This document shows, in pieces, positions 41,904-61,137 of a stretch of 64,000 nt of DNA. Under the pieces are notes generated by a model. It had not been told where the DNA came from and did no database searches. It saw nothing but the letters and a program-made list of their open reading frames with translations. This DNA is from Candidatus Eisenbacteria bacterium (GTDB lineage: Bacteria; Eisenbacteria; RBG-16-71-46; JAFGJU01). The DNA is taken from contig JAPLKG010000008.1 in assembly GCA_026388185.1 (NCBI GenBank), forward strand, positions 1 to 64,000, in the 5' to 3' direction. The translations under genes were made by a program, and so were the position numbers. Within the stretch, counting starts at the first letter, position 1. Each line of letters starts with the position of its first letter.

Positions 41904-41906
41904 CGA

Positions 41907-43187: not shown

Positions 43188-43279
43188 GATTACCCCCTCG
43201 CGTTGTCGATTAGCTCGTCGTCGGCAAGATCGCGTCGCGTGAACATGTAGTTACGAATGTCGATCATCGCGTCATTTTA

Positions 43280-44614: not shown

Positions 44615-44625
44615 AAGAACCTCCC

Positions 44626-44685
44626 GGAATTGTGAACCTTTCCTTGAACTTTCCCTAACTTGTGTACCCGTGCGGAATTGTTCAC
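44626..44685. repeat. direct 13-base repeat upstream of the C1 peptidase gene
   Basis: CGGAATTGTGAAC (44626-44638) and CGGAATTGTTCAC (44673-44685), 11 of 13 identical, 47 bases apart, in the 282-base gap between divergent genes. Possible regulator site. The rest of the gap shows nothing I can support. Confidence 0.4.
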
Positions 44686-44896
44686 ATGATACACGAGACG
44701 CCGTGCGGAGTCACGGACGATGATAGCGTATTCGTCCGAGGCACACGTCGGCCTCAGCACCCGGCCACTCCCAGCCCGCCTTCGGCTTGCTTTTCAAGGT
44801 TCAATGATTCTCCTTGCTGAGAACGTCGGCCAGGCTTAGAATGCCTCGGGTGTGAGGTTGTGATGGCAGTCGTCAGTCCGCACACGGTTGAGGGTC

Positions 44897-47005
44897 ATGG
44901 CTCGCTCTACTTCGCGACACCAGCGGCGTGCTTCAGCAAAACGCTCGTCTCTTCACACACACCGGGACCCGCTTGGTCTTCGTGGACCGGGTTCAGCGAA
45001 GATTGTTGCCTGGCACTATCGGATTGCGATGATCGTCGTAGTGCTGGCTGCAGGCCTCCTCTTGTGGGTCGTACTTGGACCCCACAAGATCGGTGATTAC
45101 TACACGGAAACCGACTTCTACGGGAGCTACGCCGAGGGAGCACGTCTGATCCAGGCAGGCCATCTCGATCCGTCGCGATACGCCGTCGTGGGACCCGTCT
45201 TCGACGCGGTAGTTGCTGCCGTTGGGCTGGCCACCCGAGACCTCTTCACGGCAGCGGAGTTGGTTGCGGTTCTTGCAGCGTGCGGCACACTCATCCTCTG
45301 GTTCCTATTGGTCGCGCGACTCGCTGGATCAGGACTCGCCTTGTGGACCATGCTGTTCCTCGCGGTCAACCCGACGTTCTTTCGCTACGGATATTCCGTC
45401 ACGACAGATGCATTGGGCACATTCGTGCAGGCGGCCGCACTTCTTGCTCTCCTTGTCGGGCGACGGGGGCTTGCGCCGCTGTGGGCCGGGGCACTGGCTG
45501 CACTTGCGGCGCTTACACGTTATAACGCCGTCTATTTGTTCCCCGGGGCTCTCCTCTACTACGCGTGCTTCGATCGAGGCCGCTCGGGTTCTCGCCTACG
45601 CGCGCTGGTCCTCTTTCTAGTCGGTTTCGCCGTCGTGATACTGCCCTGGCTGGGTTTATCGCTTCAGTCCGGCCAGATGCCCGGAGGGGCGCTCTTTCAT
45701 AACATCGCGTACGACATCTATTCGTCCAAAGGCATCTCGTGGGAACGATACGCGGTGCAAGTTCAACCTGAGATTAGCTCGCTCCGGGATGTGGCGCTCC
45801 ATGCCCCGGCCGTCGTGCTGCGCCGTGAGTTCACCAATCTTTTTCGGCACCTGGCTCTGGACGTCAAGCTGCTTCTCGGGTGGCAAGTGGCAGTCTGGTG
45901 CATGTTCGGTCTGATTCTCTCGCTGTGGGACGGAACCTGGCGCAGGTTCCTGCCCGTGTGGATGATGGGCGCTCTTCTCTTCATCACCCTGGTGCCTGCG
46001 ATTCATTCTGAGCGCTACTCGCTGCCGCTCGCCCCGGTCTACCTCACCTTGGCTGGAGTAGCGGCTGCATCGCCTCGTCTGGTCCCCGTTGTCAAAGGAT
46101 GGCTATTCCCGCTCAAGTGGGTGTTGGCCCTCCTGCCGCTCCTGATTTCTGGAGCAGCCAGCCTCAACACCCAGCGCGAGGTTCTGCACAAGCTACCAGT
46201 GGAGGTCCTGGAAGCTGCCAAGGTGCTTGATCGTGCTGCCCCGCGGGGAACTCGAATTCTAGCCCGCAAGCCACACATCGCCTACGCAGCAGGATTTACG
46301 CTAGTTCCATTTCCAGCCGTCGGCACTTTACCGGAGCTCGCTCAATACTGCCTTCGTGAAAAGGTGGAGTTCATCTATTTCTCATGGCCCGAGGCAAACA
46401 CGCGAGCCTATTTCACGTATCTGCTTGACCCGGAAGCACAAGTACCTGGACTCCGGGTGGAACGCTTCTTCCCGAGCGGACCTGCGGTTCTGTATCGCAT
46501 CGAACCTGGGTTCGGGACCACACCGGAATGGTTCGCGAGCGATTCTCTGCGAACGGTGCACGTTACGCGCGCCATCACCTCGATGGGTGCCACACCCTGG
46601 CGAGTGCCGTATATCTGCGGCACCTATGCTTATGAGCAGGGGCAGTTCGCAGCGGCACTTGGGCACTTCAATCTTCTGATGCAGTCGCGCCCCGGCTTCG
46701 CTGAAGCGTACTTCCTGGCTGGCCAGGCCTACGCCGGTCTCGGCCAACTGGAGAACGCAGCCGCAGCCTACGCCCGCGCCCTTGAGCTCCAGCCGGACTA
46801 CCCCGAAGCTCGATTGCGTCTTGGGTGGACTGAGCTCAAGGCAGGGCGACCCCGGAACGCGGCCCGCACCTGGCGCCCGATCGTTGGAGCGGTCAGAGAT
46901 TCGAGTTCGCTCGTGACCATGATCGGGCTCTATGAGAGACTGGGCGATAGACAGGCCGCTCTCAAGGCTCGCGAGACCTTTCTGCGCCGGCGGTTGCCTC
47001 GATAG
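44897..47005 (+). CDS. membrane glycosyltransferase (GT39/PMT-like) with TPR tail
   Basis: 702 residues from ATG 44897 (start uncertain; TTG 44888 also possible). Basic N-terminus, then about ten membrane helices (about 45-430). The first outer loop has acidic residues (DYYTETDFYGSYAEGA) like polyprenyl-phosphate-sugar-dependent GT-C enzymes. Further marks: FLAVNPTFFRYGYSVTTDAL and LAALTRYNAVYLFPG. The soluble C-terminus ends in two or three TPRs (AEAYFLAGQAYAGLGQLENA, then PEARLRLGWTELKAG). Likely transfers a lipid-linked sugar to protein or glycan at the outer face of the inner membrane; acceptor unknown. Confidence 0.75.
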   Translation: MARSTSRHQRRASAKRSSLHTHRDPLGLRGPGSAKIVAWHYRIAMIVVVLAAGLLLWVVLGPHKIGDYYTETDFYGSYAEGARLIQAGHLDPSRYAVVGPVFDAVVAAVGLATRDLFTAAELVAVLAACGTLILWFLLVARLAGSGLALWTMLFLAVNPTFFRYGYSVTTDALGTFVQAAALLALLVGRRGLAPLWAGALAALAALTRYNAVYLFPGALLYYACFDRGRSGSRLRALVLFLVGFAVVILPWLGLSLQSGQMPGGALFHNIAYDIYSSKGISWERYAVQVQPEISSLRDVALHAPAVVLRREFTNLFRHLALDVKLLLGWQVAVWCMFGLILSLWDGTWRRFLPVWMMGALLFITLVPAIHSERYSLPLAPVYLTLAGVAAASPRLVPVVKGWLFPLKWVLALLPLLISGAASLNTQREVLHKLPVEVLEAAKVLDRAAPRGTRILARKPHIAYAAGFTLVPFPAVGTLPELAQYCLREKVEFIYFSWPEANTRAYFTYLLDPEAQVPGLRVERFFPSGPAVLYRIEPGFGTTPEWFASDSLRTVHVTRAITSMGATPWRVPYICGTYAYEQGQFAAALGHFNLLMQSRPGFAEAYFLAGQAYAGLGQLENAAAAYARALELQPDYPEARLRLGWTELKAGRPRNAARTWRPIVGAVRDSSSLVTMIGLYERLGDRQAALKARETFLRRRLPR

Positions 47006-47081
47006 GCAGGTGCAGAGTAAATTCCAACGAGTTGTCCACCGAATCTGAAGGAAGGACGGGAAAATGCGAAAGGAGATTGCC

Positions 47082-47852
47082 ATGAAGCGATCTTTTCTGC
47101 CGGCGTATGTTCTGCTGTGTTTGCTGGCTCTGGTCCTCTTCACCGCGCCGTCGTACTGCCAGACGAACGATATGACGCAGGGGATGAAAATGGGCGATCA
47201 GGCGCCTGACACCACGAAGAGCACGGCTCGAGAGATGGACGTTGCCCATCCCTTCTTCACGCACATGGGTATGCCCGAAGGTGTTGGCAATTACACGCTC
47301 CGACTGGACGGGACCGCCACCACAGGTGAAGGAAAAACCGAGGGGGATTTCGGGTTCCATTTGGAGACCGGATTATCAGAGACCATCGGCCTTCATATCA
47401 GAAATGACCGGGTATCAAGCAACCCACATACAGAGATTACCTTTCAATTCGCCGCCCTCAGCAGCCATGATAGAATGAGCGGCTTCTCTCCCTTCATGGA
47501 GTTTGAGATACCAACTCATGAAGGTGAGAAAACGATCTATACTCTGGTCGGTTTCTCCACTGCCTGGGCGACCAGCGGGTTCGCACTTAACCAATCCTTG
47601 GAGTACAGTCCGAAGGAAGAGGACGTTGAGGGTAGCGCATCGGCAGTGGTCAAGCTCAGTGAACGGTTTTTCCCGGTCGTGGAGTTCATCGGGGAGGCAG
47701 TGAAAGGATCGCCGCCCTTGTATACCATGCTGGGAGGGCTCAAAGGTCGGATTAGCAGACGTGTCCTCATCGGAGCGGCGTATAAGGTGCCTTTATCAAG
47801 CGAAAAGGAGTTCGACTCTCAAGTCTTGGTCGAAACCGATCTCGAATGGTGA
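47082..47852 (+). CDS. putative outer-membrane barrel-like protein
   Basis: 256 residues from ATG 47082, chosen for AAAGGAG 6 bases upstream; ATG 47064 is in frame. Signal peptide (LPAYVLLCLLALVLFTAPSYCQ), a Met-rich stretch (NDMTQGMKMGDQ, MGMPEGVGNY), then alternating beta-strand-like segments (YTLRLDGTATTG, DFGFHLETGLSETIGLHI, ITFQFAALSS, LYTMLGGLKGRIS) ending in an aromatic residue (ETDLEW), as in barrel proteins. Family not recognised. Confidence 0.65.
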   Translation: MKRSFLPAYVLLCLLALVLFTAPSYCQTNDMTQGMKMGDQAPDTTKSTAREMDVAHPFFTHMGMPEGVGNYTLRLDGTATTGEGKTEGDFGFHLETGLSETIGLHIRNDRVSSNPHTEITFQFAALSSHDRMSGFSPFMEFEIPTHEGEKTIYTLVGFSTAWATSGFALNQSLEYSPKEEDVEGSASAVVKLSERFFPVVEFIGEAVKGSPPLYTMLGGLKGRISRRVLIGAAYKVPLSSEKEFDSQVLVETDLEW

Positions 47853-47933
47853 TTTTCGCTTGCCGTCATTCCACGGGGGTTGATCTTGACGCACTTGGCA
47901 CGCGGCGCGCACATGGCAAAGCAATAGGAGTGG

Positions 47934-47996
47934 CTCCTCGGGCTGGACTCGAACCAGGGGCCCGGTAGTTTGAACTTAAGAGGAATTATCCGAGGA
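47934..47996 (-). other. short degenerate tRNA-like sequence
   Basis: Reading the minus strand: TCCTCGG at the 5' end pairs with CCGAGGA before G-CCA (CCA at 47933-47931), with a T-arm-like GGTTCGAGTCC. At 63 bases it is too short, and no proper D and anticodon arms can be drawn; a CTTAAGT element recalls a leucine anticodon loop. Probably a tRNA remnant at the edge of the accessory region. Confidence 0.5.
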
Positions 47997-48041
47997 TCCC
48001 TGGAGGAATACAGGATTTGTGTTCTGCTCTTTCGAGATGAG

Positions 48042-49346
48042 TCAACTTACCACTTTCAGCACTCGCCATGAACCCCCGTCGAGCGGTACGAGACCCAGGA
48101 AGTAGGTATGTGCGCTGGTAAGGATGCGCTCCGGATTTCCCAAAAGCTCAAGCGGAACGTCAAGGATTACTTCTTCTGCTCTGCGCTGAACCCTTATCGC
48201 GTCCGTCGGAAGGGTGCGGTCCTGGTCGTAGATTCGATGTTCAAGTTCACCCAGCTTAATATGCAACTTTGGCATCTGTTGGAAGGAGAGGTCCTTTCGA
48301 TATCCGAACACGTAGACGGAAGCTCCTACTTGTCCCCCCAGAGGTCTGGACCACCTAATAGATAGCACAAATCGCCCATTTTCAATGTGCACGAAGCGTT
48401 CCTGAATGCCGACAAATGCCTCTCGGTTCTCTTCAAGAAGCTGTTCGGGTAGCGCTGTTTTCAAGTCATGGTATTCAGGCGAAATCGCAATTGCGCCGGC
48501 ATTGAGCGACAAAGTGGTGTCTGGAAAATCTCCGAATATCTCGTTGGAACGAACAAAAGAGAGAAGATACCTTCTATTTGCTTCGTACTGTGACCGATGC
48601 TTCCTGAGAGCATTGCGCTTGCGCTCTATCTCGGTGGAATTCAAATCATGATCCTGCCACTGTATCCTCGACTTTAACTCGTGAGGAGGCAACAGGCTAT
48701 CACTGGGACGATATCCCCTCGGTGTGGGCCACTGCCTGTAGTGCACCAGGTAAGGATAGACGACAGGGTTGATCTCATTCTCAAGATCCCAGAGGACGAC
48801 ACGAAGGAAGAGGTAGAGCGATTTGTGATCAGAATTGTGGTCACCGGGGTGAGAGACAAATATCTTCGTCGGCCTGAACTCGAGTAATGTCTTCTCAAGG
48901 TCAGCCAATATTTCCTCTCCCTTGTACGGCGCTCCTGGCCGAAAGGCATTTGGATATGGCACCGCTCCCGCGTGGGTGAGAATGCTTTCAACGGGTGGTC
49001 GATCGCCCCAGTGAGAACACCAGATGTCCAGCGTTCCAAAGTCAGGATATCCGAGAAACGTTAGCTGCGGGGGCGGCACTCCCAGTGCCTTGGCTGCCTC
49101 AAGCGCTTCGTCATGTCGCACTAGCCCCATGTTCCTGGCACCTTTCGGAAGTAACACGGGATGCCTGCGATAAAGCAGGAATGACCACTCATTGCTGTCG
49201 CCATAGGTAAGAAACACAATTCGTAGCGGTAGGTTCAGTTTCATTGCTTCTTGAATGATTCCGCCGGTGCCCAGGACCTCGTCGTCCGGATGCGGTGCGA
49301 GTATGAGAATGCGATCTTGAGGATCGAACATTATTGCCGTTGACAT
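48042..49346 (-). CDS. PIG-L family (LmbE-like) deacetylase
   Basis: 434 residues from ATG 49346 (GGAGAG upstream). N-terminal PIG-L domain (1-230): ILILAPHPDDEVLGTGG holds the zinc His/Asp pair and catalytic Asp, and VSHPGDHNSDH the second zinc motif. These enzymes remove acetyl groups from N-acetylglucosamine-type substrates. The C-terminal ~170 residues are a beta-rich domain (FVLSIRWSRPLGGQVG, LHIKLGELEHRIY) I do not recognise. Substrate unknown. Confidence 0.87.
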   Translation of the reverse strand: MSTAIMFDPQDRILILAPHPDDEVLGTGGIIQEAMKLNLPLRIVFLTYGDSNEWSFLLYRRHPVLLPKGARNMGLVRHDEALEAAKALGVPPPQLTFLGYPDFGTLDIWCSHWGDRPPVESILTHAGAVPYPNAFRPGAPYKGEEILADLEKTLLEFRPTKIFVSHPGDHNSDHKSLYLFLRVVLWDLENEINPVVYPYLVHYRQWPTPRGYRPSDSLLPPHELKSRIQWQDHDLNSTEIERKRNALRKHRSQYEANRRYLLSFVRSNEIFGDFPDTTLSLNAGAIAISPEYHDLKTALPEQLLEENREAFVGIQERFVHIENGRFVLSIRWSRPLGGQVGASVYVFGYRKDLSFQQMPKLHIKLGELEHRIYDQDRTLPTDAIRVQRRAEEVILDVPLELLGNPERILTSAHTYFLGLVPLDGGSWRVLKVVS

Positions 49347-49440
49347 ATGACTCTCCAGCGGCACCCCCAGCTGGGGCGCATCGCGTAATCAATGTGTTCG
49401 CGTTTCTAGGCCGAGCGCATTGTGCAGTCAACCTCCGATC

Positions 49441-50103
49441 TCACAGTCTCTTCCCGAGAATGTAAAACGGCAGGTCTCTTCTCAGGCAGTATCTCAAAAA
49501 AGTTCGCTTCCCTTCAGCCAGCAGGCCGAAGCCCTGCTTCTGAAAAAAACTCCTTGCTCTTTCTGACATTGTGTTGACATGGACGCCTGGTACCGCCTCG
49601 CTTTTCAGAAATCCAAGATAGCGATCCATCAACTGCGTTCCTACCTTCGTCCCTCGGAACCTCGCATCCACGTTGATATGCAGCGTAGCAGGATACTCGC
49701 GTGAGACGTCCGGAGTACAAAACTCCCCTCTAAGAAAGCTCATCATGACATGAAAGAGGAATCTCCACGCCTTAGGTCTGAAGCAAGTCCCCGTGAGCAC
49801 GGCCTTCCTGAAAAGTCGGGGCATTACTTTCGCTCTGAATACCCGTCGCATCGTCGCTGAGTTTTTTGCCCCGGTAACGTAACCCACAACCCTGTCCTCG
49901 TCAACGGCGACAAGACAAGAGTCTGGCTCGTAGTCTGTGAAGTAGAGGGTCAGGGCGTCAGCCAGAATCTCGTCGTCGTCAAAGCAAGAGGCCAGTGATT
50001 CTCCCAGAAAAGCGGTCTCACAGGCTATTCTCCTGACGTCTGCCCTGTCATTATGATCAAGTTTTCTGATAGATATCATGCTCTGTTGCCGTGAGTTAGT
50101 CAT
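49441..50103 (-). CDS. GNAT family N-acetyltransferase
   Basis: 220 residues. Acetyl-CoA-binding motif A as VDARFRGTKVGTQLMDRYLGFL (R-x-x-x-G-x-x-L form), earlier SCLVAVDEDRVVGYVTG strand, and a late FFQKQGFGLLAEG motif B-like segment. A roughly 45-residue insertion (about 88-135) separates the strands. Acceptor unknown. Same strand as the PIG-L gene, 94 bases upstream; co-function on amino sugars is possible but unproved. Confidence 0.82.
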   Translation of the reverse strand: MTNSRQQSMISIRKLDHNDRADVRRIACETAFLGESLASCFDDDEILADALTLYFTDYEPDSCLVAVDEDRVVGYVTGAKNSATMRRVFRAKVMPRLFRKAVLTGTCFRPKAWRFLFHVMMSFLRGEFCTPDVSREYPATLHINVDARFRGTKVGTQLMDRYLGFLKSEAVPGVHVNTMSERARSFFQKQGFGLLAEGKRTFLRYCLRRDLPFYILGKRL

Positions 50104-50370
50104 ACATTATGTGCGCGTAACCTGTGTCCTCTATCTTCCGTCAAATCGTCCTCGGTCGTTTCCGATTATACTTGCGTTACGCGTCGAAGCCAAGAGTGAT
50201 GGGCGCTGCCCCACGCTGATCGAAACGCGGTGACCCCGGAAAGAGAACATCCTGCTGCTCGAGCAAGGAACAGACTAAGCCGGAAGTAATACTCATAAAT
50301 AGACAGTTCGGGTATACTCAGTCGCAGATCTCAATGATGAACAAATGAAGACACAGGAGGGGAAAATGGT

Positions 50371-50853
50371 ATGAAAGAAACCTTTCGTTTCATACTCAAT
50401 GACAACCCCACGGAATTGACATCGGATGGGGAGCGGATGCTCCTATGGATATTACGTACAGACTTAGGTCTGACCGGAACTAAGTATGGGTGCGGAGAGG
50501 GACTCTGTGGAGCCTGTACAGTTCTGGTGAATAACGAACCTGTCCGGTCATGCCGGTTTCCGATGCAAGCTATCAATGGGAAGGAAGTCATCACTATCGA
50601 GGGACTGTCTCGAAACGGGAATCTACATCCTCTACAGAGAGCATTCATAACCTGTGATGCCATGCAGTGTGGATTTTGCACCTCAGGGATGATCATCAAT
50701 GCCTACGGTCTGTTGATCAAGAACCCTCAACCCACTCGTGCAGAAATCATCGAAGGCATGGACGGTAATCTATGTCGATGCGGTTCCTATCTCAGAATAA
50801 TCCAGGCCATCCAAGCCGCAGCTCAGGAGATGAGAGGGGGAGTGACCGGATGA
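50371..50853 (+). CDS. molybdenum hydroxylase small (2Fe-2S) subunit
   Basis: 160 residues of the CoxS/IorA type. Plant-type [2Fe-2S] motif GCGEGLCGACTVLV and the second cluster in CGFCTSGMI and CRCGSYLRI. Passes electrons from the molybdopterin subunit. No signal of its own, while its partner has a Tat signal, so it would be co-exported as a complex. ATG 50371; the stop overlaps the large-subunit start (ATGA). Confidence 0.93.
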   Translation: MKETFRFILNDNPTELTSDGERMLLWILRTDLGLTGTKYGCGEGLCGACTVLVNNEPVRSCRFPMQAINGKEVITIEGLSRNGNLHPLQRAFITCDAMQCGFCTSGMIINAYGLLIKNPQPTRAEIIEGMDGNLCRCGSYLRIIQAIQAAAQEMRGGVTG

Positions 50854-53003
50854 GAGACGATGAAGTCCTGAAGTTGGATTTTTCTGACATGAATGTCGGG
50901 TTTCCTCTCAGCCGTCGAGCGTTCCTGAAAGGTCTTGGCGGGGGGATATTGATCCTGTTCGCTGTTGGAGATCTTTCAGTGCTCCAGGCACAAGAACGTC
51001 GAGGAGGTATCGAGTATCCCAGCGATTTCAATGCCTATCTTTTGATCGGAGAGGACGGTCGGGTTTCGTGTTTTACCGGGAAGATCGAAATGGGTCAGGG
51101 AGCGGTTACCTCTCTGGCGCAGATGTTGGCGGATGAGCTTGAGGTGTCTCTGGATTCAGTTGACATGATCATGGGAGACACGGATCTGTGTCCCTGGGAT
51201 ATGGGCACTTTCGGATCCATGACCACACGTTTCTTTGGTCCGCCCCTCAGGGCCGCCGGCGCAGAAGCTCGAGCTGTGCTGATGGAATTGGCTGCAGAAC
51301 ACCTCCAAGCGCCAATGAGCCGGTTGAAAGTAGAAGCTGGAGTGATATTCGATAAGAACAATAGCAAGAATCAAGTGACCTACGCTCAGTTGGCGAAGGG
51401 AAGAAGAATCGAGAAACATCTTGAAACAAAGCCACACACAAAAGAATTCTCGGAATTCAAAATCATAGGCAAACCGGTTTCACGTCGAGATGCACCGGAA
51501 AAGGTCAGCGGAAGAGCTAAGTTTTCTGGAGACATTCGATTACCCGGTATGTTGTATGCGAGACTCCTAAGACCCCCGGCTCATGGCGCAAAATTGAAGG
51601 GCGTGGATGTTTCGGCTGCAAGAGAAACGGAAGGGGTGCAGATAGTCCAGGATGGTGATCTTGTGGCCGTTCTTCATGAATATCCTGATGTGGCCGCGGA
51701 GGCCATCGATAGACTGAAGGCTCAGTACGATTCGCAGGAAGTGAATGTAGACGACAAGACTATTTTCGATCACTTGCTCAAGGTTGCCCCGAAAGGCGAG
51801 ATGGTTTCCCACGGGGGGGATCTTGCGGAAGGGAGAAAACTGTCTGTCTCCACTTTTGAGAAAAAATACTTGAACGGTTATGTTGCTCATGCTCCCATCG
51901 AAACTCATACGGCTACGGCTCAAGTCGAGGGAGGCAAAGTCACAGTTTGGGCATCCACGCAAACGCCGTTTGGCCTCAAGGAGGAGATTGCTGGTGCACT
52001 AGAGGTTCCCCCTGAGAATGTCCGCGTCATCACTCCCTTTGTAGGAGGTGGATTCGGTGGAAAGACCAACAACCAGCAGGGTGTGGAGGCAGCCCGTCTG
52101 GCAAAGCTAACCGGGAAGCCTGTCCAGGTTGCTTGGACCCGCGGGGAGGAATTCTTTTATGATACCTTCCGACCGGCGGCAGTGGTCAAAATAACATCGG
52201 GAATTACCAATTCCGGTGGAATTTCACTGTGGGATTACGGTGTCTATTTCGCAGGACAGAGGGGCTCTGAGCACTTCTACGATATTCCTCATCACCAAAC
52301 GGTGGTCTATGGATCGGGATGGAGAGGCGCCCCAGGATCGCATCCTTTTGGCACGGGCCCGTGGCGTGCACCCGCCAACAACACAAATACCTTTGCGCGC
52401 GAATCACAGATGGACATCATGGCTTCCAAGGCGGGGATGGATCCCTTGGAATTTCGCTTGAAGAACTTGAAAGACGAAAGAATGATCAGAGTTCTCAAGG
52501 CGGCAGCGGAGAAATTCCGTTGGACTCAGTCAAGAGCGCCAAGTGGTCGAGGCTATGGCGTAGCCTGCGGTATTGATGCAGGCACCTATGTCGCGCACAT
52601 GGCCGAGGTCGAAGTCGACAAGGGGAGTGGGCTTGTGCGGGTCAAGCGTGTCGTCTGCGCTCAAGACATGGGTCTGGCGATCAACCCGGAAGGGGCAAGA
52701 TTGCAGATAGAAGGATGCATCACGATGGGATTGGGTTATGCCCTGAGCGAGGAAATTCACTTTAGAGGCGGAGAAATCCTTGACCTCAATTTCGACACCT
52801 ATGAAATCACGCGGTGTTCCTGGACGCCGGACATCGATACGGTGCTGATCGATGGGGCAGATTCGCCTGCACAGGGAGGAGGGGAACCAGCAATCATTTG
52901 CATGGGTGGAGTAGTTGCCAATGCCATCTTCGATGCCACCGGAGCGAGACTGTTTCAGCTTCCCATGACCCCCGAAAGAATTCGGGACGCAAAGAGCGAT
53001 TGA
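50850..53003 (+). CDS. molybdenum hydroxylase large subunit (isoquinoline/aldehyde oxidoreductase type), Tat signal
   Basis: 717 residues from ATG 50850. Tat signal LSRRAFLKGLGGGILILFA (about 19-40). Molybdopterin-binding domains with FTGKIEMGQGAVTSLAQMLA, TPFVGGGFGGKTN and the catalytic Glu in AQGGGEPAIICMGG. The IorB-like two-subunit layout (no FAD-subunit gene visible) means electrons probably leave through a cytochrome or quinone acceptor outside the cytoplasm. Substrate (aldehyde or N-heterocycle) not predictable. The frame is open upstream to 50772 but overlaps the small subunit. Confidence 0.9.
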   Translation: MRDDEVLKLDFSDMNVGFPLSRRAFLKGLGGGILILFAVGDLSVLQAQERRGGIEYPSDFNAYLLIGEDGRVSCFTGKIEMGQGAVTSLAQMLADELEVSLDSVDMIMGDTDLCPWDMGTFGSMTTRFFGPPLRAAGAEARAVLMELAAEHLQAPMSRLKVEAGVIFDKNNSKNQVTYAQLAKGRRIEKHLETKPHTKEFSEFKIIGKPVSRRDAPEKVSGRAKFSGDIRLPGMLYARLLRPPAHGAKLKGVDVSAARETEGVQIVQDGDLVAVLHEYPDVAAEAIDRLKAQYDSQEVNVDDKTIFDHLLKVAPKGEMVSHGGDLAEGRKLSVSTFEKKYLNGYVAHAPIETHTATAQVEGGKVTVWASTQTPFGLKEEIAGALEVPPENVRVITPFVGGGFGGKTNNQQGVEAARLAKLTGKPVQVAWTRGEEFFYDTFRPAAVVKITSGITNSGGISLWDYGVYFAGQRGSEHFYDIPHHQTVVYGSGWRGAPGSHPFGTGPWRAPANNTNTFARESQMDIMASKAGMDPLEFRLKNLKDERMIRVLKAAAEKFRWTQSRAPSGRGYGVACGIDAGTYVAHMAEVEVDKGSGLVRVKRVVCAQDMGLAINPEGARLQIEGCITMGLGYALSEEIHFRGGEILDLNFDTYEITRCSWTPDIDTVLIDGADSPAQGGGEPAIICMGGVVANAIFDATGARLFQLPMTPERIRDAKSD

Positions 53004-53119
53004 TTGAGGACTTATTTTGGACGCCCTCACGAATCTTTCACGTATTCAATAGCCCCTTATTTGTTAGCTCGTTTTTTGTCACGACACCGTTGTTCAGGAT
53101 GGGGTCTTTCGTCTGATCA

Positions 53120-53698
53120 ATGATCTATCTATTGACTGGTCCTGTACATTCCGGAAAAACGACCTTCTTGGCACGGATCATCCGTTCGTTGAAAGAGAGG
53201 GGGGTTGAGGTTGGTGGTTTCCTGAGTGTGTCGATCTGGAATGGTGACGAGTGCACAGGCTACGATCTGTATGATTTGAGCGAAGAGGAGGCGGTCCCCT
53301 TTATCCGCGCGACGGGAGAAAGAGCTTGGCAAAAGCTAGGCCCCTATTTTTTCATCCCCGACGGTCTCGAAAAGGCCAAGAACGTCCTTCTTCGAACCCG
53401 GAATGCCGATCTCTTGGTAGTGGACGAAGTCGGCCCTTTAGAACTATCAGGGGAAGGGTTGTGGCCGGTTCTGAGAGATGTGATTTCCCAGTGCAAAACG
53501 AACTGTCTCATAGTTGTCAGGGACAGCATTCTCAGGGATTTCGTGGAAATGCTGAACGACTCTGATGCAGAAGTGTTCCATGTTCAAGATAGCGGCATCT
53601 TTGCTCGGATGATAGATGAATTCACGGATCAACGCAGGAGACCCCCTCTTGGGGACGCCCGCAGCGGCAAGCAACTTCGTGATGGACACACTGCTTAA
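53120..53698 (+). CDS. THEP1-type nucleoside-triphosphatase
   Basis: 192 residues. Walker A LTGPVHSGKTTFLARI, Walker B LLVVDEVGPLELSGEGLWPV, family-typical GGFLSVSI after the P-loop. Members hydrolyse NTPs; the biological role is unclear, though such NTPases are often seen near molybdenum-enzyme genes. It follows the hydroxylase genes by 116 bases on the same strand. Confidence 0.85.
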   Translation: MIYLLTGPVHSGKTTFLARIIRSLKERGVEVGGFLSVSIWNGDECTGYDLYDLSEEEAVPFIRATGERAWQKLGPYFFIPDGLEKAKNVLLRTRNADLLVVDEVGPLELSGEGLWPVLRDVISQCKTNCLIVVRDSILRDFVEMLNDSDAEVFHVQDSGIFARMIDEFTDQRRRPPLGDARSGKQLRDGHTA

Positions 53699-53800
53699 CC
53701 GGAAATGGATCCGTTATTACAGGAACGTTTCGGCATCCGCTAGGCATCCCCTCGCTGTTCACGACTTGCGTTGAGGTAGACGCAGTAGAACTCATTGTGG

Positions 53801-53829
53801 CTCCTCAAGTTGTACGATTTGCGAACCAT
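53801..53829 (+). repeat. dispersed repeat, copy 1
   Basis: CTCCTCAAG then TTGTACGATTTGCGAACC then AT. It shares the 18-base core TTGTACGATTTGCGAACC exactly with copies at 53871 and 54805. The 515-base gap 53699-54213 holds copies 1 and 2, a CCGTGGC/GCCACGG hairpin near 53930-53960, and no gene I can support. Confidence 0.75.
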
Positions 53830-53870
53830 CGCCGTAGATCTACCCAGAGTTCGATGAACCGTCCAGAGTG

Positions 53871-53912
53871 CTCCTCCAGTTGTACGATTTGCGAACCATT
53901 AGGGTTGAAGTG
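53871..53912 (+). repeat. dispersed repeat, copy 2
   Basis: CTCCTCCAG then the 18-base core then ATTAGGGTTGAAG. Seventy bases after copy 1, same orientation. Similarity to copy 3 extends past the core (TTAGGRTTSARGTRGC). Confidence 0.75.
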
Positions 53913-54213
53913 GCCAGAAGTGGATGACGCCGTGGCTGTTTGAACAACGGCAAAACGCCACGGTCCACCTTACCGAGCACGCTCAGCGAGATTCCATTGA
54001 CTTGCAGATATGACAGATTTACTCTTGAGTCTGGATTGCGAAGGCTGCTTGAGGGCAGGTCTGGCGTTTATCATCTCTGAGCTGATTTTTGGCTTTTTCT
54101 GGCGCCGCAGGTTGGGCTGGGCCACCCAGAAAATTGCACTGTGAATATCCACGAAAGTGCAACACCGTCCAGTTTCACACACTACGTATACAAGCACACC
54201 TGAGGAGACGACT

Positions 54214-54783
54214 ATGGCAGAGGAAAAGTTCCCGATCGTAAACGATTTTGAGGCGTTTATTCAGGAATTCAAAGACGAATCCGACAGGGCAATCGTCGTA
54301 CTTACAGCAGCACGTCTCGATTTTCTCCTGTCCTTAATCCTTCAGAAATACCTGGTTGCTAATGCCGGTACGGTGGACGAGTTCTTCGAGAATCAGGGAC
54401 CCGGATCAACTTTTAGTAACAAGATAATGCTCGTCTTCAGACTGGGTTTGATAGACTCCGACTTCGCTCGTACGCTCCACCTAGTTCGCAAAATCCGCAA
54501 TGATTTCGCCCACGAAACCGCCGCGTGCTCCCTCGAAAAAGGAAGTCACAAGGACCGAATCAGGGGGCTTGTAGCACCCTACAAGGACATACCCTTCTTC
54601 GCTCGTTTCAAGCGGGTGTACTTCAAGGACATCGGACCATCGCGAGCTGACTACATGACCGTTGTTGGTCTTGCGATCCTCAGGCTGCACTATCTGTTCG
54701 AGGTGCTAGGAACAATTCCAACAGAGACAGCATTGTCACTGTTCAGCTCCAAGATGCGAGCGTCTAAGGAGAAGGAGAAATAG
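54214..54783 (+). CDS. MtlR-like (mannitol-repressor fold) protein
   Basis: 189 residues from ATG 54214 (GAGGAG 6 bases upstream). All-helical MtlR-family pattern: SDRAIVVLTAARLDFLLSLI, LVANAGTVDEFFENQGPGSTFSNKI, LGLIDSDFARTLHLVRKIRN and DFAHE. The family is named for MtlR but has no DNA-binding motif, and relatives are frequent in mobile or defence contexts. Flanked by direct repeat copies (53871 upstream, 54805 downstream) and followed by the multidomain nuclease gene; a functional link is inference. Confidence 0.75.
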   Translation: MAEEKFPIVNDFEAFIQEFKDESDRAIVVLTAARLDFLLSLILQKYLVANAGTVDEFFENQGPGSTFSNKIMLVFRLGLIDSDFARTLHLVRKIRNDFAHETAACSLEKGSHKDRIRGLVAPYKDIPFFARFKRVYFKDIGPSRADYMTVVGLAILRLHYLFEVLGTIPTETALSLFSSKMRASKEKEK

Positions 54784-54804
54784 ATCGAAGAGTCGAGAGA
54801 CCCG

Positions 54805-54840
54805 CTCCCCAAATTGTACGATTTGCGAACCGTTAGGATT
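54805..54840 (+). repeat. dispersed repeat, copy 3
   Basis: CTCCCCAAA then the same 18-base core then GTTAGGATT. Lies between the MtlR-like gene and the multidomain nuclease gene. Confidence 0.75.
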
Positions 54841-55041
54841 CAGGTAGCAAGAAGTATTGCAGGATAGCTGCCGGATAGAACCTCAGTTCGTCGGCGCTAC
54901 GATTCCTAGCTTCGTGGCAGCCTTAATCAAAGGAACTTCGAGGGAATAGCGCAGAATCAGTCGTACCGCCAAGGTCACCCCGGCTCTGTGTGTCAGAAGT
55001 TCAGCTTGAAGAAACAGCCGAATCAGAGCTATAGTCCAAAT

Positions 55042-58000
55042 ATGAGCTCTATCAGCAAGAACCTCGGTCACAAAAAAACAGTCCCCGCCCCCCCGTGTGA
55101 TTTGGGCCAATTCCAGATTCTTCCGATCTCCGATTGGGAAAAATTCGAGCGGTTCTGTAGGGATCTGTGGGCGGACCTATGGAAGAATCCAGAACTTGAG
55201 CGTCACGGCCGACAAGGCCAACCACAGGCCGGCGTTGATGTGTACGGTGAATCGAGGCCCGATAGGAAATTCGGAGGCATCCAGTGCAAACGCAAGGATG
55301 CTTATGCCGACAGTTCTCTCACAGAGAAGGAGCTTCGGAAAATAGTCAATGCGGCGAAGAAATTCAAACCTCGCCTAGATAAATTTGTTGTCGCCTATAC
55401 AGGTAAGCGAGATGTCAAACTTCAAAGGGTGGCCCGGGACATAACCCAAAAGCACAAGGCCTCCGGATGGTTCACCGTTTCTGTGGCCTCATGGAACCAC
55501 ATTGTGGACCTTCTGGGAAGCCATCGAGAGGTCGCGGACAAGTATTTCGGTTTCCTTAATCCGCCCAACGTCAACAAAGCTGCGGTTGACGACTTGAAGC
55601 AGATCGTCTTGGATCGAATGGAAGACATGACCAAGGCAATCTCAGAAATGCCGCAGACCATCGTTCCCATACAAGACGCTTCCCCAGGCGTACTAAAAAC
55701 ACTCCAGACGGATGCTTCTGTAACAGCAGAATTCAACGCAGAACTGGATCTTGCCAAGAAGCTGATAGATGAATTCAGGCCCAAGTCAGCATTGGAGTTT
55801 CTAGAGGACCTAGGGAAGCGCATTCGCGCGGACGCGGATAAGATAGTGAGGTATCGCTTGCTCACCAACAAGGCAGCTGCGAAAGGCCTGATCGGAGACA
55901 AGCGGGGAGCTGGAGAGCTTCTCATAGCGGCGCATCAATACAACCCTGATGATGAAAAAGCTCTGTGCAACCGTGCGCTGGGCCACGCCCTCTTGGGACA
56001 GAACGAAGATGCTCGGGAATGGATAGACCAGGTATTGAAGAGAAATCCTGCCAGTCGGCGGGCCTACGGAATTCTCGTTCACTGCGCTCCTTCGGAGGAA
56101 AGTCTTGACCAAATCATCCAGAAGATTCCCGAGTGGATGAGGCAGACCGAAGAGATTACATCCGCCCTGGGCTATGCCGCGGCCTCACGGGGCAAGCCGG
56201 AAGAATCTGCCCGCTGGTTAGAACTAGCACTCGAAGCTGCGAATAAGGACATCCCCCAACCCGATCTGTGGGCAGACCTTGCAGGAAGTCTTCTTCAAGC
56301 CATTTCTCATAAACTTGAGGTGATCAGCAGGATTCAGGTAACTGCGGCAGACGGAGAGAAAATCCAGCGAATTATAACGCTATTGAACCAGGCAATTGAA
56401 GCAGTTAGAGAAACGGAAACCATCAAATTCAGATCAAGCTGGTTCGTGAACCGCGGCTCGGCCCATCGCCTGTTAGGGGAATTCGATCTTGCTTTGTCCG
56501 ACATCGAATCGGCACTCAGTCTTGACCGCTCGGACGCCAGGTTCCTGAAACATAAGGCGATCATTCTCTATGAACGAGGTGATGTTGACTCGGCGGTCAG
56601 CATCTTTCGCCGGATAATCTGTGATCCCGCCACCCCGGAGATCTCCATTATTCTTGCAGGAATTCTGCATGAAAAAGGTCAAGACGAGGAAGCTGTAAAG
56701 ATTCTAGAGGAGTCGCCTTTCAAGATCATTCCCGATGCATTGCGAGAGGGGAAACAGCATCTTCTTATCGAAATTTATCTTGCCCTAGGGGATTATGATA
56801 AAGCCCGCGCGACTTTGGCGGCCATGCGCGCTTCCTATCCGGGGAACATTCTTAATCTAGTTGAAGCCGCACGAGTCGAAAAAGCAACAGGAGACGAGGT
56901 TGCCGCTAACCGTCTTCTGGACGAGGCATTCACGTACGTTTCCGAGAAAACGCCGTTTAGCCACCGGGTCGAGCTTGCTAACGAGCTTTATGTTCGTGAA
57001 CAATATACGAAGACCTGGCCACTTCTGGAGAAAGTCGTGGATGCCAAGCTCGAGACTCCTCTCACCAATCAGCTTCTGTACTCCTACTACCGGGCCGGAG
57101 AAGTTGCAAAGGGCTTGGCCGCCTGCCGCTCGATACCAGAGGCGAAAAAAAGCAGGTTCGTTACCCAAATCCACATAGCGATTCTTGAGGAAATCAGAGA
57201 CCTTAGCGAAGCAGTTCGGGTCGAAGAAGCATACTTGAGCCGGAACCCAAACGACATAAAGATACGGATTCGTTGGGCGGCAACTTTGTATCGGCTGGGA
57301 GAGCGGGAGAAACTGGACGCCTTCTTGAAGTCCCCGGTGGATCTGAAATCGCTCCCTTTGGACGCCGGGTTGCAGCTAGTCGCACTCTATCTAGAGCAAG
57401 AGATGCCGGAGAAAGCGCTCGATTTGGGTTATGAACTGCGACGCAAGTACTATGAAGATCCAGAAGCGCACTTGAAATATGTGGGCCTTTTTTTCACCTG
57501 CGAGAAGAAGCTCGACCGAGAGAAGCTCTCACCGAGGGAAGTAGGAGAGAATACGGCGGTCCAGGTGGATGATAACGGGTCGAAGGAATGGTATGTCATC
57601 GAGAATCGTCAGAATGCAGAAGTGGCGAGAAATGAGCTCGACTTGAATAATCCGTTGGCTCAGAGACTCTTGGGCAAACATATTGACGATGAAGTGGTGA
57701 CCCGGAAACATGCCCTGGCTGAGACAAAAGTCAAGATCGGTGGCCTGAAGAGTAAGTATGTTCATGCCCTCCACGAAACCTTCGAAATATTCCCACACGT
57801 GTTTCCCGACACTCCCGGCTTGGAGAGGGTGCCCGTCACAATTGGAGAAGAGAAGAAAGACATCGAAAGAATGCTCGAAGTCATTGGAAAACGCGACGAC
57901 CGGATTTCTGGAATTGAGAAGCTCTACTTAAATACTCAGATACCTCTAGGGACTTTTGCGAACTTGCTAGATCAGAACCCGGTCGAAGTCTTGAGTGGTC

Positions 58001-58989
58001 TGTCAAATACCAGCGAAGTTCGGAACTGTTCCGGAACCGCCGAGGAAAGAGAATCTGCGTTGGATTTGATCAGAAATAGCAGAACCGTCGTGGTAGATGT
58101 CACAGCAATTTATACGTGTGCGCAGCTGCAGAAATTGGATCTACTAAAGAAGGTTTTTGACCAGCTCCTCGTTGGCCAATCGACAATTGATTTGCTTCGT
58201 GATGCGATTTCCGAACACAAAGGGGCCACTGAGTCGGGATTCATGAGAATTTGGAAGGACAAGGACGGTTTCCGACGCCGCGAGGTTACGGCCGAGGAAG
58301 TGAGAAAGAACATTCAGTTCCTGGAAACGATGAAGAATTGGGTTATAGCCAACTGCCGTCTAGCTCTCTGCCCCAGTTTGCCGAAGTTGAGAGTCGAAAG
58401 GCCAGAACTCTCTGAGGAAACAATAGGAGAATCGTTTCTCGAAGCATTTGTGATTAGCCGGGAAAACAAAGTTCCTCTTTATTCGGATGATTTGGTAACT
58501 CGACTCATCGCTAGCAAGGAATTTGGTGTTTCTGGTTTCTGGACCCAAGTGGTGGCACTGCATGCACTGAACGAGAAACTCATTTCCCAGGAGGAATACA
58601 GCGGCTTAGTAATCCGGCTTATTCAGCTGCGTTTTCGGCATACGACCATCAACGAAGCGGTGTTGCTTGACGCTGCTCGCAAGTCCGGATGGGCCACCGG
58701 CCATCCTTTTCTCGATGTAGCTGACACTCTGACCAAGCCAGAAATGGAACTGAGATCCATTGTCAAAGTGGCCGCAGAATTCTTCTACCTGCTGTGGCAA
58801 CAGCCCATCTTTGGTATGCGAAGGGACAGTTTGGTTGTGGCTACGCTGGATTCGCTGACTTGTGGAAGGAGAAAGGATGTTGTCCTCAAGGCTCTGGAAG
58901 CAGCTATAAGACACCGGTTCCGCTTCGCTCCCTTGATTGAGAACGACCTCTTACGGATGATGGTAGCCTGGTACTCTCTCAAGGTCTAA
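55042..58989 (+). CDS. restriction-endonuclease-like / TPR / GreAB-C-like / PIN multidomain protein
   Basis: 1315 residues from ATG 55042 (GTG 54988 possible; neither has a good ribosome site). Residues about 25-190: PD-(D/E)XK Mrr-like nuclease, with Glu36, Asp66 in GVDVYGE and Gln81-x-Lys83 in GGIQCKRK. Residues about 240-820: long TPR/superhelical array (for example SSWFVNRGSAHRLLGEFDLA, AIILYERGDVDSAVSIF). Residues about 830-915: a segment like the C-terminal domain of GreA/GreB (NTAVQVDD..., then NPLAQRLLGKHIDDEV at 870-885). Residues about 1010-1165: PIN-like nuclease with Asp1019 (TVVVDVTAIY), Glu1134 and Asp1149 (LYSDDLVTRLIA). This matches a predicted conflict-system architecture known, as I recall, as TPR-GreAB-C-PIN, here with an extra N-terminal DNase-like domain. 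Likely antiphage or transcription-linked defence; untested. Confidence 0.8.
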   Translation: MSSISKNLGHKKTVPAPPCDLGQFQILPISDWEKFERFCRDLWADLWKNPELERHGRQGQPQAGVDVYGESRPDRKFGGIQCKRKDAYADSSLTEKELRKIVNAAKKFKPRLDKFVVAYTGKRDVKLQRVARDITQKHKASGWFTVSVASWNHIVDLLGSHREVADKYFGFLNPPNVNKAAVDDLKQIVLDRMEDMTKAISEMPQTIVPIQDASPGVLKTLQTDASVTAEFNAELDLAKKLIDEFRPKSALEFLEDLGKRIRADADKIVRYRLLTNKAAAKGLIGDKRGAGELLIAAHQYNPDDEKALCNRALGHALLGQNEDAREWIDQVLKRNPASRRAYGILVHCAPSEESLDQIIQKIPEWMRQTEEITSALGYAAASRGKPEESARWLELALEAANKDIPQPDLWADLAGSLLQAISHKLEVISRIQVTAADGEKIQRIITLLNQAIEAVRETETIKFRSSWFVNRGSAHRLLGEFDLALSDIESALSLDRSDARFLKHKAIILYERGDVDSAVSIFRRIICDPATPEISIILAGILHEKGQDEEAVKILEESPFKIIPDALREGKQHLLIEIYLALGDYDKARATLAAMRASYPGNILNLVEAARVEKATGDEVAANRLLDEAFTYVSEKTPFSHRVELANELYVREQYTKTWPLLEKVVDAKLETPLTNQLLYSYYRAGEVAKGLAACRSIPEAKKSRFVTQIHIAILEEIRDLSEAVRVEEAYLSRNPNDIKIRIRWAATLYRLGEREKLDAFLKSPVDLKSLPLDAGLQLVALYLEQEMPEKALDLGYELRRKYYEDPEAHLKYVGLFFTCEKKLDREKLSPREVGENTAVQVDDNGSKEWYVIENRQNAEVARNELDLNNPLAQRLLGKHIDDEVVTRKHALAETKVKIGGLKSKYVHALHETFEIFPHVFPDTPGLERVPVTIGEEKKDIERMLEVIGKRDDRISGIEKLYLNTQIPLGTFANLLDQNPVEVLSGLSNTSEVRNCSGTAEERESALDLIRNSRTVVVDVTAIYTCAQLQKLDLLKKVFDQLLVGQSTIDLLRDAISEHKGATESGFMRIWKDKDGFRRREVTAEEVRKNIQFLETMKNWVIANCRLALCPSLPKLRVERPELSEETIGESFLEAFVISRENKVPLYSDDLVTRLIASKEFGVSGFWTQVVALHALNEKLISQEEYSGLVIRLIQLRFRHTTINEAVLLDAARKSGWATGHPFLDVADTLTKPEMELRSIVKVAAEFFYLLWQQPIFGMRRDSLVVATLDSLTCGRRKDVVLKALEAAIRHRFRFAPLIENDLLRMMVAWYSLKV

Positions 58990-59183
58990 ACACTCCTTAT
59001 CTCAAATTTGTAGTAAGACGTTTGCTGCCAAGATATGAAGAACGTGGAGCAAGCGCAAGTCCTAGCGATTGCACGCCGGCAAAGTGAAACACAAATGGGT
59101 CTTTGGAGGAAGAATTTCTCGCCGCGCCCGAGCGTTTGGCCAGACATCGCAGGACTGAGAGCCTTACCCTCCAACGTCGCTCC

Positions 59184-59564
59184 TCACTCAGTATTTGCCT
59201 TCATATGTCCCCTAAGCCGCGCCAGTTGCCTCCTGACGATCTGCTCCTGGAATTCCAGGTCCTTGTCAGTTCCCCAAAACGGCTTTTCCATCTGAATCTG
59301 ATCTAGTCTATTTTTCAAATATTCAAAATAATCAAGATTCCTAACCAAATCTTTGCAGCCGCCCCGAACTTCCATTTTTCCAAGTAGTTGCTTGAATCTC
59401 TGTATTCCGGACTTTCCCCGTATGAATAATTGAATTCCGCATTCATTACACGTGCAATAGGGTTTTTGATTCTTTGTTATCTCTACCAAGAGCATTTCTC
59501 CACAGACGGGACAGGGGAAATACGAATTCTTCTCTTGGTCATTATCCAACGTTACGTTGTCCAA
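59184..59564 (-). CDS. zinc-ribbon protein of mobile-element type
   Basis: 126 residues from TTG 59564, chosen because GAGGTGA lies 5 bases upstream (a GTG at 59573 is also in frame). The N-terminal zinc ribbon has CPVCGEMLL and YCTCNECGIQLFIRGKSG; the rest is helical and charged. Such small proteins accompany Rep genes of small replicons. It lies 10 bases after the Rep-like frame on the same strand. The gap 58990-59183 holds nothing I can support. Confidence 0.65.
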   Translation of the reverse strand: MDNVTLDNDQEKNSYFPCPVCGEMLLVEITKNQKPYCTCNECGIQLFIRGKSGIQRFKQLLGKMEVRGGCKDLVRNLDYFEYLKNRLDQIQMEKPFWGTDKDLEFQEQIVRRQLARLRGHMKANTE

Positions 59565-59574
59565 TAGAATCACC

Positions 59575-60042
59575 TCAAATGACCGCTATCAGTCTTTCAA
59601 GATCGCTCGCACTTGCGAAGGATCGTAGCAATCCATCATAATCATACTGCTCGGCAAACGCGTCTCCACAAGCTGCGGCGTGTAGAAGCGAAATGCCACA
59701 TTTGATTAGCCACCACCCCGAAGCGGTTCGCTTTTCAAACAGCAGAATATCTCTTGAGGTGCTATATCGCCTGGTTCCCCAAGGAGCAGACAAGATAACA
59801 TCCTTAGCAAGGTACTTCGAGAGGTAGTAGCTTATCCTGTGTAGGTCCCTGATCGCTTCGATGTGGACGATACGCCCGCCGCCCAGAGCTTCCCAATTCT
59901 CAGAGATCCACGCCTGGGGAATGTAGCATTGGATGAGAATGTGCAAATGAGGTATGCCAGACTTGTGAAACTCAACAACGGAAATGAAAAGGACCGACTT
60001 ACCCAATCTCCTCTGCAGATAAACTCTGAACTTGGCCCAGAC
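59575..60042 (-). pseudogene. HUH-type rolling-circle Rep, N-terminally truncated
   Basis: 156 codons of recognisable Rep: WAKFRVYLQRRLGK, VVEFHKSGIPHLHILI with the HUH metal motif (HLH), WISENWEALGGGRIVHIEAI and the catalytic-Tyr segment ISYYLSKYLAKDV, then RRYSTSRDILLF. The usual first ~60 residues with motif 1 are missing: at 60042 the frame runs straight into tRNA-derived sequence (SSMAERPAINRRVAGSSPTR is translated tRNA). So the gene is broken or fused at its 5' end, although the metal and tyrosine motifs remain. Confidence 0.7.
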
Positions 60043-60115
60043 TCCCCGAGTAGGACTCGAACCTGCAACCCTCCGGTTAATGGCCGGACGTTCTGCCATT
60101 GAGCTACGACGAACC
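60043..60115 (-). pseudogene. broken tRNA-Asn-like sequence
   Basis: The minus strand begins GGTTCGTCGTAGCTCAATGG like a tRNA-Asn 5' half, with anticodon stem TCCGG/CCGGA, but the loop is CCATTAA (U33 lost, ATT instead of GTT). After the T-loop TTCGAGTCC the 3' acceptor strand (expected GACGAACC) is replaced by unrelated sequence. Probably an integration or recombination scar. Confidence 0.65.
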
Positions 60116-60169
60116 AGCCACCGACAGTTCCCACGGCCCGCTCTACAAGCTATCATCCCGAGACTTCTC

Positions 60170-60242
60170 TTGACGAAGAGTCAGCTTTCGTTATAATAAC
60201 GAAAAGGCGCCGAAACTTGGTCATTTTCGTTATAGTAACGAA
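60170..60242 (+). promoter_or_regulatory. promoter with twin palindromic operators
   Basis: Promoter TTGACG (60170-60175), 16 bases, TATAAT (60192-60197). Perfect palindromes TTCGTTA-TAA-TAACGAA (60187-60203, containing the -10) and TTCGTTA-TAG-TAACGAA (60226-60242), centres 39 bases apart. Predicts repression by a dimer bound at both sites. Confidence 0.75.
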
Positions 60243-60257
60243 TACACGGGAGGTTGT

Positions 60258-60383
60258 GTGGGGAGTTTCAGAAAGCATCTCGATATCGCGACCGAGAAAC
60301 TGGACGTTCTGGTCACTGCGTATCGGAATGGGCAACACACGGTAGTGGGTGACTTGGGGACAAAGGTGGGGGAGGTTTGGTGA
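60258..60383 (+). CDS. 41-aa protein translationally coupled to nucleotidyltransferase
   Basis: GTG 60258 to TGA 60383, with GGGAGG 4 bases upstream. The product has a helical charged first half (FRKHLDIATEKLDVLVTAYR) and ends VVGDLGTKVGEVW. The stop overlaps the next start as GTGA. Too short to recognise; could be an antitoxin-like partner or the remnant of a DNA-binding domain. Confidence 0.5.
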   Translation: MGSFRKHLDIATEKLDVLVTAYRNGQHTVVGDLGTKVGEVW

Positions 60384-60967
60384 GAAGATTGAACCAAAAG
60401 CGAAACCTTAAGAAACTAGTTGGGTGTCTGGCTCCGATCGGCGGAGTCAAGTCCGTGATTCTCTACGGTAGTTTTGCAAGAGGAGACTTTGGACCGAAAT
60501 CTGACCTAGACCTGCTTATCATTACTGACAAAGCCGGGGCCCGCCACGCTGTTCTGAAAGTAGTTGCTGGGCTCGACTTGGACAGGCGAGTCCAGCCTAC
60601 GGTCAGGACCGAATCAGAGCTTGGAAAAACTGACAGCGGGCTGCTCAAGAATATCTTCGAGGAAGGGAGAGTTGTTTATCTGAGAGAACCCATGGAGATT
60701 CCTGTGAAGGCTCTTCTCGGACTCAAGCCGTTCTCGATACTGGTGTTTGAGCTTACACGCTTGGACCAGAAGACAAAGGCAAGATTCAACAGGGAAATGT
60801 ATGAGAGGAGCAGGGGCAGGTACAAGTATGGGGGCCTCTTGGAGGAGATAGGTGGACGAAGGCTGTCAAGGGGCTGCGTACTCATTCCTCTGTCCGCAAG
60901 AACCCGGTTACTGAGATTCTTCAAGAAATACCTTGTGGGATTTGAGGAGATCGAGGTCTGGAGATGA
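60380..60967 (+). CDS. MNT-type nucleotidyltransferase-domain protein
   Basis: 195 residues from GTG 60380. The N-terminal half is a minimal nucleotidyltransferase: SVILYGSFARGDFGPKSDLDLLII with the GS motif and the DxD metal residues, then a third acidic strand near RRVQPTV. The C-terminal half (about 110-195, FNREMYERSRGRYKYGGLLEEIGG) is basic and unrecognised. MNT proteins occur as antitoxins with HEPN toxins and as stand-alone AMP or nucleotide transferases; no HEPN gene is adjacent. Preceded by twin operators and the coupled 41-aa ORF. Confidence 0.75.
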   Translation: MRRLNQKRNLKKLVGCLAPIGGVKSVILYGSFARGDFGPKSDLDLLIITDKAGARHAVLKVVAGLDLDRRVQPTVRTESELGKTDSGLLKNIFEEGRVVYLREPMEIPVKALLGLKPFSILVFELTRLDQKTKARFNREMYERSRGRYKYGGLLEEIGGRRLSRGCVLIPLSARTRLLRFFKKYLVGFEEIEVWR

Positions 60968-61053
60968 GTCGCTGCTAATCATGCCATCCACCAGGGCCTT
61001 CGACGGCTGGCGGGGTCCGACACGCCGGAAGCATCCCCCCACCTGCATTTGCC

Positions 61054-61082
61054 TTGACGACCCGTGGACTCGGTGCTAAAGT
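61054..61082 (+). promoter_or_regulatory. promoter for por operon
   Basis: TTGACG (61054-61059), 17-base spacer, TAAAGT (61077-61082); the operon start codon is at 61138 with AAGGAG before it. Confidence 0.6.
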
Positions 61083-61137
61083 ATCAGGCTAGTCATTCTG
61101 ACACAGTATGCTCTTTGGATTTAGATAAGGAGTCTTC

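Follow-up and report, generated by a model that had tools for sequence, protein, structure and literature searches.

A REase-TPR-GreA/B-C-PIN protein from a Candidatus Eisenbacteria bacterium is a new member of a predicted conflict-system family, in a host family that seems to lack Gre factors

The window analyzed here is a 64,000-nucleotide stretch of DNA from a Candidatus Eisenbacteria bacterium. It contains one intact frame on the forward strand that starts with an ATG at 55042, stops at 58989, and encodes a protein of 1,315 residues; a further in-frame GTG start candidate is present at 54988. The protein, referred to below as the giant protein, is the sole copy in the host genome. Its parts and its surroundings are listed in Table 1.

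Table 1. Features of the giant gene, its upstream neighbor, and the surrounding block (positions in the window)
Feature	Coordinates	Strand	Basis
Giant gene, REase-TPR-GreA/B-C-PIN-helical C-terminus	55042..58989	+	Open frame; PF20698, E 3.2e-26; relatives over at least 80% of the length on 11 plasmid records
PD-(D/E)XK (Mrr-like) nuclease domain, residues 22-175; E36, D66, Q81-x-K83	55105..55566	+	Invariant motif; AF2 topology; PDB matches Cap4, MspJI, Avs4
TPR array and helical scaffold, residues about 228-800	55723..57441	+	Pfam TPR models, E down to 1e-16; matches to TPR structures
GreA/GreB C-terminal (FKBP-like) domain, residues 830-915; loop NNPLAQRLLGK	57529..57786	+	PF01272, E 0.0014; TIGR01462, E 1.4e-4; top 14 PDB structure matches Gre/Rnk/Gfh1
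GreA/B-C to PIN linker, residues 920-1013, helical	57799..58080	+	AF2 helices, low confidence; Nostoc counterpart PF24407, E 0.019
PIN RNase domain, residues 1014-1170; D1019, D1050, E1134, D1149/D1150	58081..58551	+	PF20698 in all 15 members; weak PIN folds by structure; conserved residues
C-terminal extension, residues 1171-1315, without known domain, conserved positions	58552..58986	+	Family conservation: S1239, R1276, W1310
Upstream neighbor, HEPN-fold DUF4145/MtlR-like; Rx4H motif RNDFAH intact	54157..54783	+	Pfam DUF4145, E 6.5e-4, and MtlR, E 0.008; HEPN per PMC3710099; unmatched at related loci
Accessory block with giant gene, about 19 kb, recR to porG-type oxidoreductase gene	41903..61126		recR and por gene about 220 bp apart in G013

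Residues 1017-1157 match the Pfam family PF20698 ("PIN-TPR-GreABC") above its curated cut-off, and PF20698 is matched by all 15 members. This is the TPR-GreA/B-C-PIN conflict system of Kaur et al. (2021; PMC8195603), which has a constant core of TPR, GreA/B-C, and a new PIN domain, carries EAD10 or one of 13 effectors (REase among them) at the N terminus, and is encoded mostly by stand-alone genes. Those authors proposed that the protein docks on the polymerase, that PIN cuts the extruded transcript, and that the N-terminal effector serves as a back-up. The systems are mentioned again in PMC9503650, and an earlier note on this DNA was correct that TPR-GreAB-C-PIN had been predicted as a conflict system by comparative genomics. 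The window protein has the same core in the same order, with an effector of the REase type, and does not differ in kind from the published system; its host belongs to a small, poorly sampled phylum and has no detectable classical Gre factor. We regard family membership as almost certain: both the family and the architecture were already published, the giant protein is a new member, and its mechanism is a prediction. No experimental test of any family member was found in the literature searched, in which subscription papers were mostly out of reach.

By Pfam, the window REase gives a weak Mrr_cat_2 match only (E 0.05); a relative with a 38% identical REase (L021) exceeds the Mrr_cat_2 cut-off (E 7.9e-6). 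None of the residues E36, D66, Q81, and K83 varies among 13 sequences, and all are nearly invariant in the wider family. An AF2 model built from the first 215 residues and 12 relatives, of modest confidence (pLDDT 60), shows the helix and strand order of PD-(D/E)XK enzymes, with D66 and Q81/K83 on successive strands. The best PDB matches of the model were Cap4, MspJI, EcoO109I, and Avs4, with ASFV polymerase subunit chains also among them. The REase is thus predicted to carry a D...(E/Q)xK motif on neighboring strands of an alpha-beta-beta-beta-alpha-beta core, the topology being modeled at modest confidence. The invariant motif, the model topology, and the PDB matches bear out the earlier reading of an Mrr-like nuclease with Glu36, Asp66, and Gln81-x-Lys83. 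The long TPR array that had also been noted is recovered by several Pfam TPR models roughly over residues 228-700, N-terminal to the GreA/B-C and PIN domains, as in the family. The REase resembles the Mrr-like effector domains of Cap4 and Avs4 in its PD-(D/E)XK fold, its Q-x-K, and its position as the N-terminal effector of a defense protein. Unlike Cap4 and Avs4, however, the window protein has no SAVED or STAND NTPase domain, and its scaffold is made up of TPR, GreA/B-C, and PIN.

Residues 833-899 match both GreA_GreB (PF01272), under the Pfam cut-off, and NCBIfam greA (TIGR01462). When an AF2 model of residues 780-1180 (pLDDT 65) was searched against the PDB, ranks 1 to 14 were all GreA, GreB, Rnk, or Gfh1, with a probability of 1.00. 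The model therefore clearly supports the structural similarity to GreA-C proposed for residues 830-915, although the wording "strongly like" had been an overstatement on sequence alone, and it places a GreA/B-C domain in the family position between TPR and PIN. With the secondary-channel factors GreA, GreB, Gfh1, and Rnk (PF01272), the giant protein shares the C-terminal FKBP-like fold and a PLA-type loop; in contrast to these factors, it is fused to nucleases and TPRs and has no coiled coil with catalytic acids. That N-terminal coiled coil (PF03449) had no match in the giant protein or the host genome, and by this measure the giant protein is not a GreA/GreB transcript-cleavage factor. The Gre cleavage residues sit in the Gre N-terminal domain.

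The window Gre domain is also diverged, at 14 to 19% identity with the phylum's own Gre domains, and the residue before the conserved P of the loop is mostly H or N in the giant-protein family versus S or A in the Gre loops of the phylum. This divergence, the missing coiled coil, and the persistence of the giant protein in a lineage without detectable Gre factors would fit a defense protein in which the FKBP-like fold is not a dock but a receptor for an invader protein or an intraprotein contact, and in which sensing by the TPRs releases PIN and REase; TPR arrays are common sensors in defense proteins. Against this, the Gre-like loop core PLAQRLLGK is kept in the window protein, and its best structure matches are the polymerase-binding Gre, Rnk, and Gfh1. 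We consider such a receptor or internal contact unlikely, though it is the strongest of the competing explanations.

After the Gre-family structures, the model of residues 780-1180 matched the PIN folds 3ix7, 1v8p, 2fe1, EST1A, and Utp23, with weak E-values and TM-scores that are sensible for the target. PIN similarity had been proposed for residues 1010-1165, and it is weak by structure and strong by PF20698. Acidic residues had been named at 1019, 1134, and 1149. D1019 is invariant in the family alignment and residue 1134 is acidic (E in the window protein, D in 14 of 14 relatives), but D1150 is better conserved than 1149, and a further conserved acidic residue, D1050, had been missed. In the alignment, D1019, D1050, E1134, and D1150 make up a conserved acidic cluster as in PIN RNases. 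The catalytic motifs of both nucleases are intact. With PADLOC, the PIN part gives weak PDC-S70 matches only. In the Nostoc relative (L005), residues 1006-1053, between GreA/B-C and PIN, give a weak match to HTH_upst_double_PIN (PF24407, E 0.019). The giant protein shares a PIN RNase with DS-3 and DS-5, two PIN-domain proteins found by DefensePredictor whose phage defense requires the PIN RNase (PMC13092281); these were compared by description and are not described with a REase-TPR-GreA/B-C chain.

A tblastn search of plasmids gave 11 records that cover at least 80% of the giant protein at 22 to 25% identity (26.6% for Nostoc). Alignments of the plasmid relatives start at residues 16 to 30, and that of Nostoc alone starts at 228; thus, the plasmid relatives other than Nostoc include the nuclease. 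At the N terminus of the Nostoc protein lies a PNP_UDP_1 (nucleoside phosphorylase) domain (E 2.3e-8), so that the effector is exchanged between REase in the window and PNP_UDP_1 in L005, as in the published family. When bacterial genomes were scanned for the C terminus, 13 further loci came up, all of them with the nuclease. Altogether, REase is present in 27 of the 29 judgeable relatives, a count that is biased because the C-terminal scan was seeded from one clade; the two others are L005 and L018, the latter with neither domain by alignment. The same REase also occurs as part of short proteins or precedes STAND-type proteins. Because the best tblastn score was that of Nostoc (E 3e-117 over residues 228-1314), the C-terminal part of the window protein is nearest to a cyanobacterial relative, and its REase is of the proteobacterial kind. 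The N-terminal nuclease had been taken as a possible mark of a distinct variant. It is not one, since REase already figures in PMC8195603 as one choice of exchangeable N-terminal effector, and relatives that are full-length and bear the REase are common. PF20698 had no match in 46 other genomes of the phylum, single-protein pattern scans of genome contigs and viral contigs found no close relatives, and a two-sequence alignment scan (window and Nostoc) of viral contigs found no relatives. A phage-borne full copy was not seen, as a tblastn search of phage records gave a single REase-domain match only (a Salmonella record).

The neighboring MtlR-like gene had been suggested as a further possible mark of a distinct variant. 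Its Pfam matches to DUF4145 and MtlR are weak, and both families have been assigned to the HEPN superfamily (PMC3710099); the neighbor has a HEPN fold and does not point to mannitol regulation. A search of 30 related loci gave no relative of this gene; it is not a conserved neighbor, and its reading as a partner of the giant gene was rejected. Elsewhere, the giant gene is preceded at a distance of 9 bp by an Abi_2-type HEPN gene that has the motif RNRIAHH (L004, 11278-11997; L016, 7166-7885; L027, 5575-6294); this HEPN gene is truncated in L003 and L028 and is a remnant in L011. Because the Abi_2-bearing loci are close relatives of one clade, we claim no general HEPN partnership.

Known defense genes lie near the family gene in 6 of 8 plasmids (L003, L006, L009, L011, L014, and L015) versus 0 of 8 control stretches (Fisher p 0.007), the plasmids having been picked after the annotation was seen; the controls were stretches of similar size elsewhere on the same plasmid, judged by annotation only, and the strict count over all 15 annotated loci is 6. 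The genes concerned are Gabija, Shedu, Dsr1/SIR2, and TIR genes, and PADLOC confirmed GajA/GajB, SduA, Dsr1, and a TIR effector. The plasmid homologs lie in defense islands, which supports the earlier reading of a conflict or defense effector, although the window itself is not a clear defense island. We conclude that the giant protein probably has a defense role. Many relatives are plasmid-borne, and toxin-antitoxin genes lie near some of them, as might suit a selfish element for addiction or competition. Such a toxin-like multi-nuclease would stabilize plasmids or keep rival mobile elements out rather than act against phage. This seems improbable, as no antitoxin partner is conserved across loci, the neighborhoods of relatives are rich in anti-phage systems, and the window gene is located on a 535-kb contig between core genes.

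In G013, a genome of the same family, recR is separated from the por gene by about 220 bp, compared with about 19 kb in the window. The contents of this block are metabolic and uncharacterized genes, an ORF with a match to the replication protein REP_ORF2-G2P, and a nucleotidyltransferase; with these contents, the block is accessory but not a clear defense island. A predicted tRNA-Asn (anticodon ATT, with C before the anticodon) at 60040-60113 on the reverse strand overlaps the start of the replication-protein-match ORF (59575-60156) and may be what is left of a tRNA gene that decayed at an integration site. The 18-bp sequence TTGTACGATTTGCGAACC has 6 exact copies in the host genome and 0 in the 46 other genomes of the phylum. 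Window copies are at 53810-53827, 53880-53897, and 54814-54831, and other loci are L039 and L040; copies lie downstream of the window HEPN-like gene, in L039 of a SIR2 gene, and in L040 of a nucleotidyltransferase that has a small partner gene. TTGTACGATTTGCGAACC is possibly a cassette or recombination site.

One element of this analysis was unexpected, namely, the Gre-less host. PF01272 is matched in the host genome (97.9% complete) by the giant protein only. Neither a classical nor a long GreA/GreB was detected in 3 of 3 genomes of the host family (G000, G013, and G014), which are 88 to 98% complete and in which a strongly diverged factor may have escaped; the long GreA of the phylum (944 aa; L063) had no match as a query in these three genomes. 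The PF01272 search works in the phylum, since 35 of 44 genomes of other families score over the cut-off, and a GreA/GreB is present in most of the phylum's other families. In most of the phylum, GreA is the C-terminal part of a protein of roughly 900 to 950 residues with a long N-terminal extension (L063 and L064). On the basis of these searches, the host family seems to lack Gre, and no GreA/B-C domain other than that of the giant protein was found in the host genome.

The presence of this sole domain in a genome with neither a GreA N-terminal domain nor a homologue of the long GreA could point to a stand-in for lost GreA/GreB, that is, a housekeeping transcript-cleavage or RNA-surveillance factor of a Gre-less lineage. 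However, Gre and the giant protein are both missing from the sister genomes G013 and G014, so nothing seems to need replacing; moreover, the gene lies inside an accessory block, the protein is without the Gre N-terminal domain in which the cleavage residues sit, and its relatives are plasmid-borne in defense islands. Gre replacement was rejected on these grounds as very unlikely. Without a classical Gre factor, the host has no system of its own from which polymerase binding could be taken for granted.

As the best explanation, we therefore lean toward a conflict (anti-invader) protein that is encoded by a single gene, belongs to the TPR-GreA/B-C-PIN family, carries a REase-type N-terminal effector, and would act by docking and cutting. 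It is favored by the PF20698 match, the Gre, PIN, and REase folds, the conserved catalytic residues, the N-terminal exchange, the defense neighbors of relatives, the location in an accessory block, the absence from 46 genomes of the phylum, and the publication of the same architecture with this mechanism as a proposal (PMC8195603); the diverged Gre domain, the host's want of a classical Gre factor, the setting of the window, and the choice of plasmids after annotation count against it. In the mechanism that we infer, GreA/B-C would dock at the secondary channel of RNA polymerase, with a preference for complexes that have paused or backtracked on invader DNA, and PIN, some 100 residues further along the chain, would cut the extruded transcript. 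The TPR scaffold would relay docking to the N-terminal PD-(D/E)XK nuclease, which may cut DNA, the invader's or the cell's own, as a second line. The model of polymerase docking and RNA cutting is plausible; docking itself we judge to be evenly balanced, and the whole relay, with its trigger and its order of events, is tentative and rather doubtful.

If this mechanism is true, one protein would act as an immune sensor that detects invasion through the state of RNA polymerase and would respond by cutting both RNA and DNA. The window member is a good test case because the family is predicted, apparently without a laboratory test, and because the catalytic residues are clear in both nucleases. 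The absent host Gre factors would, if docking is true, offer a natural setting in which nothing competes for the docking site. It is conceivable, though a long shot, that Gre loss was permissive and that a polymerase-docking defense nuclease settled in a lineage without GreA/GreB, where it would meet no secondary-channel competitor and backtracked polymerase would go unrescued. If so, Gre-less hosts would be the cleanest place to test polymerase-docking defense.
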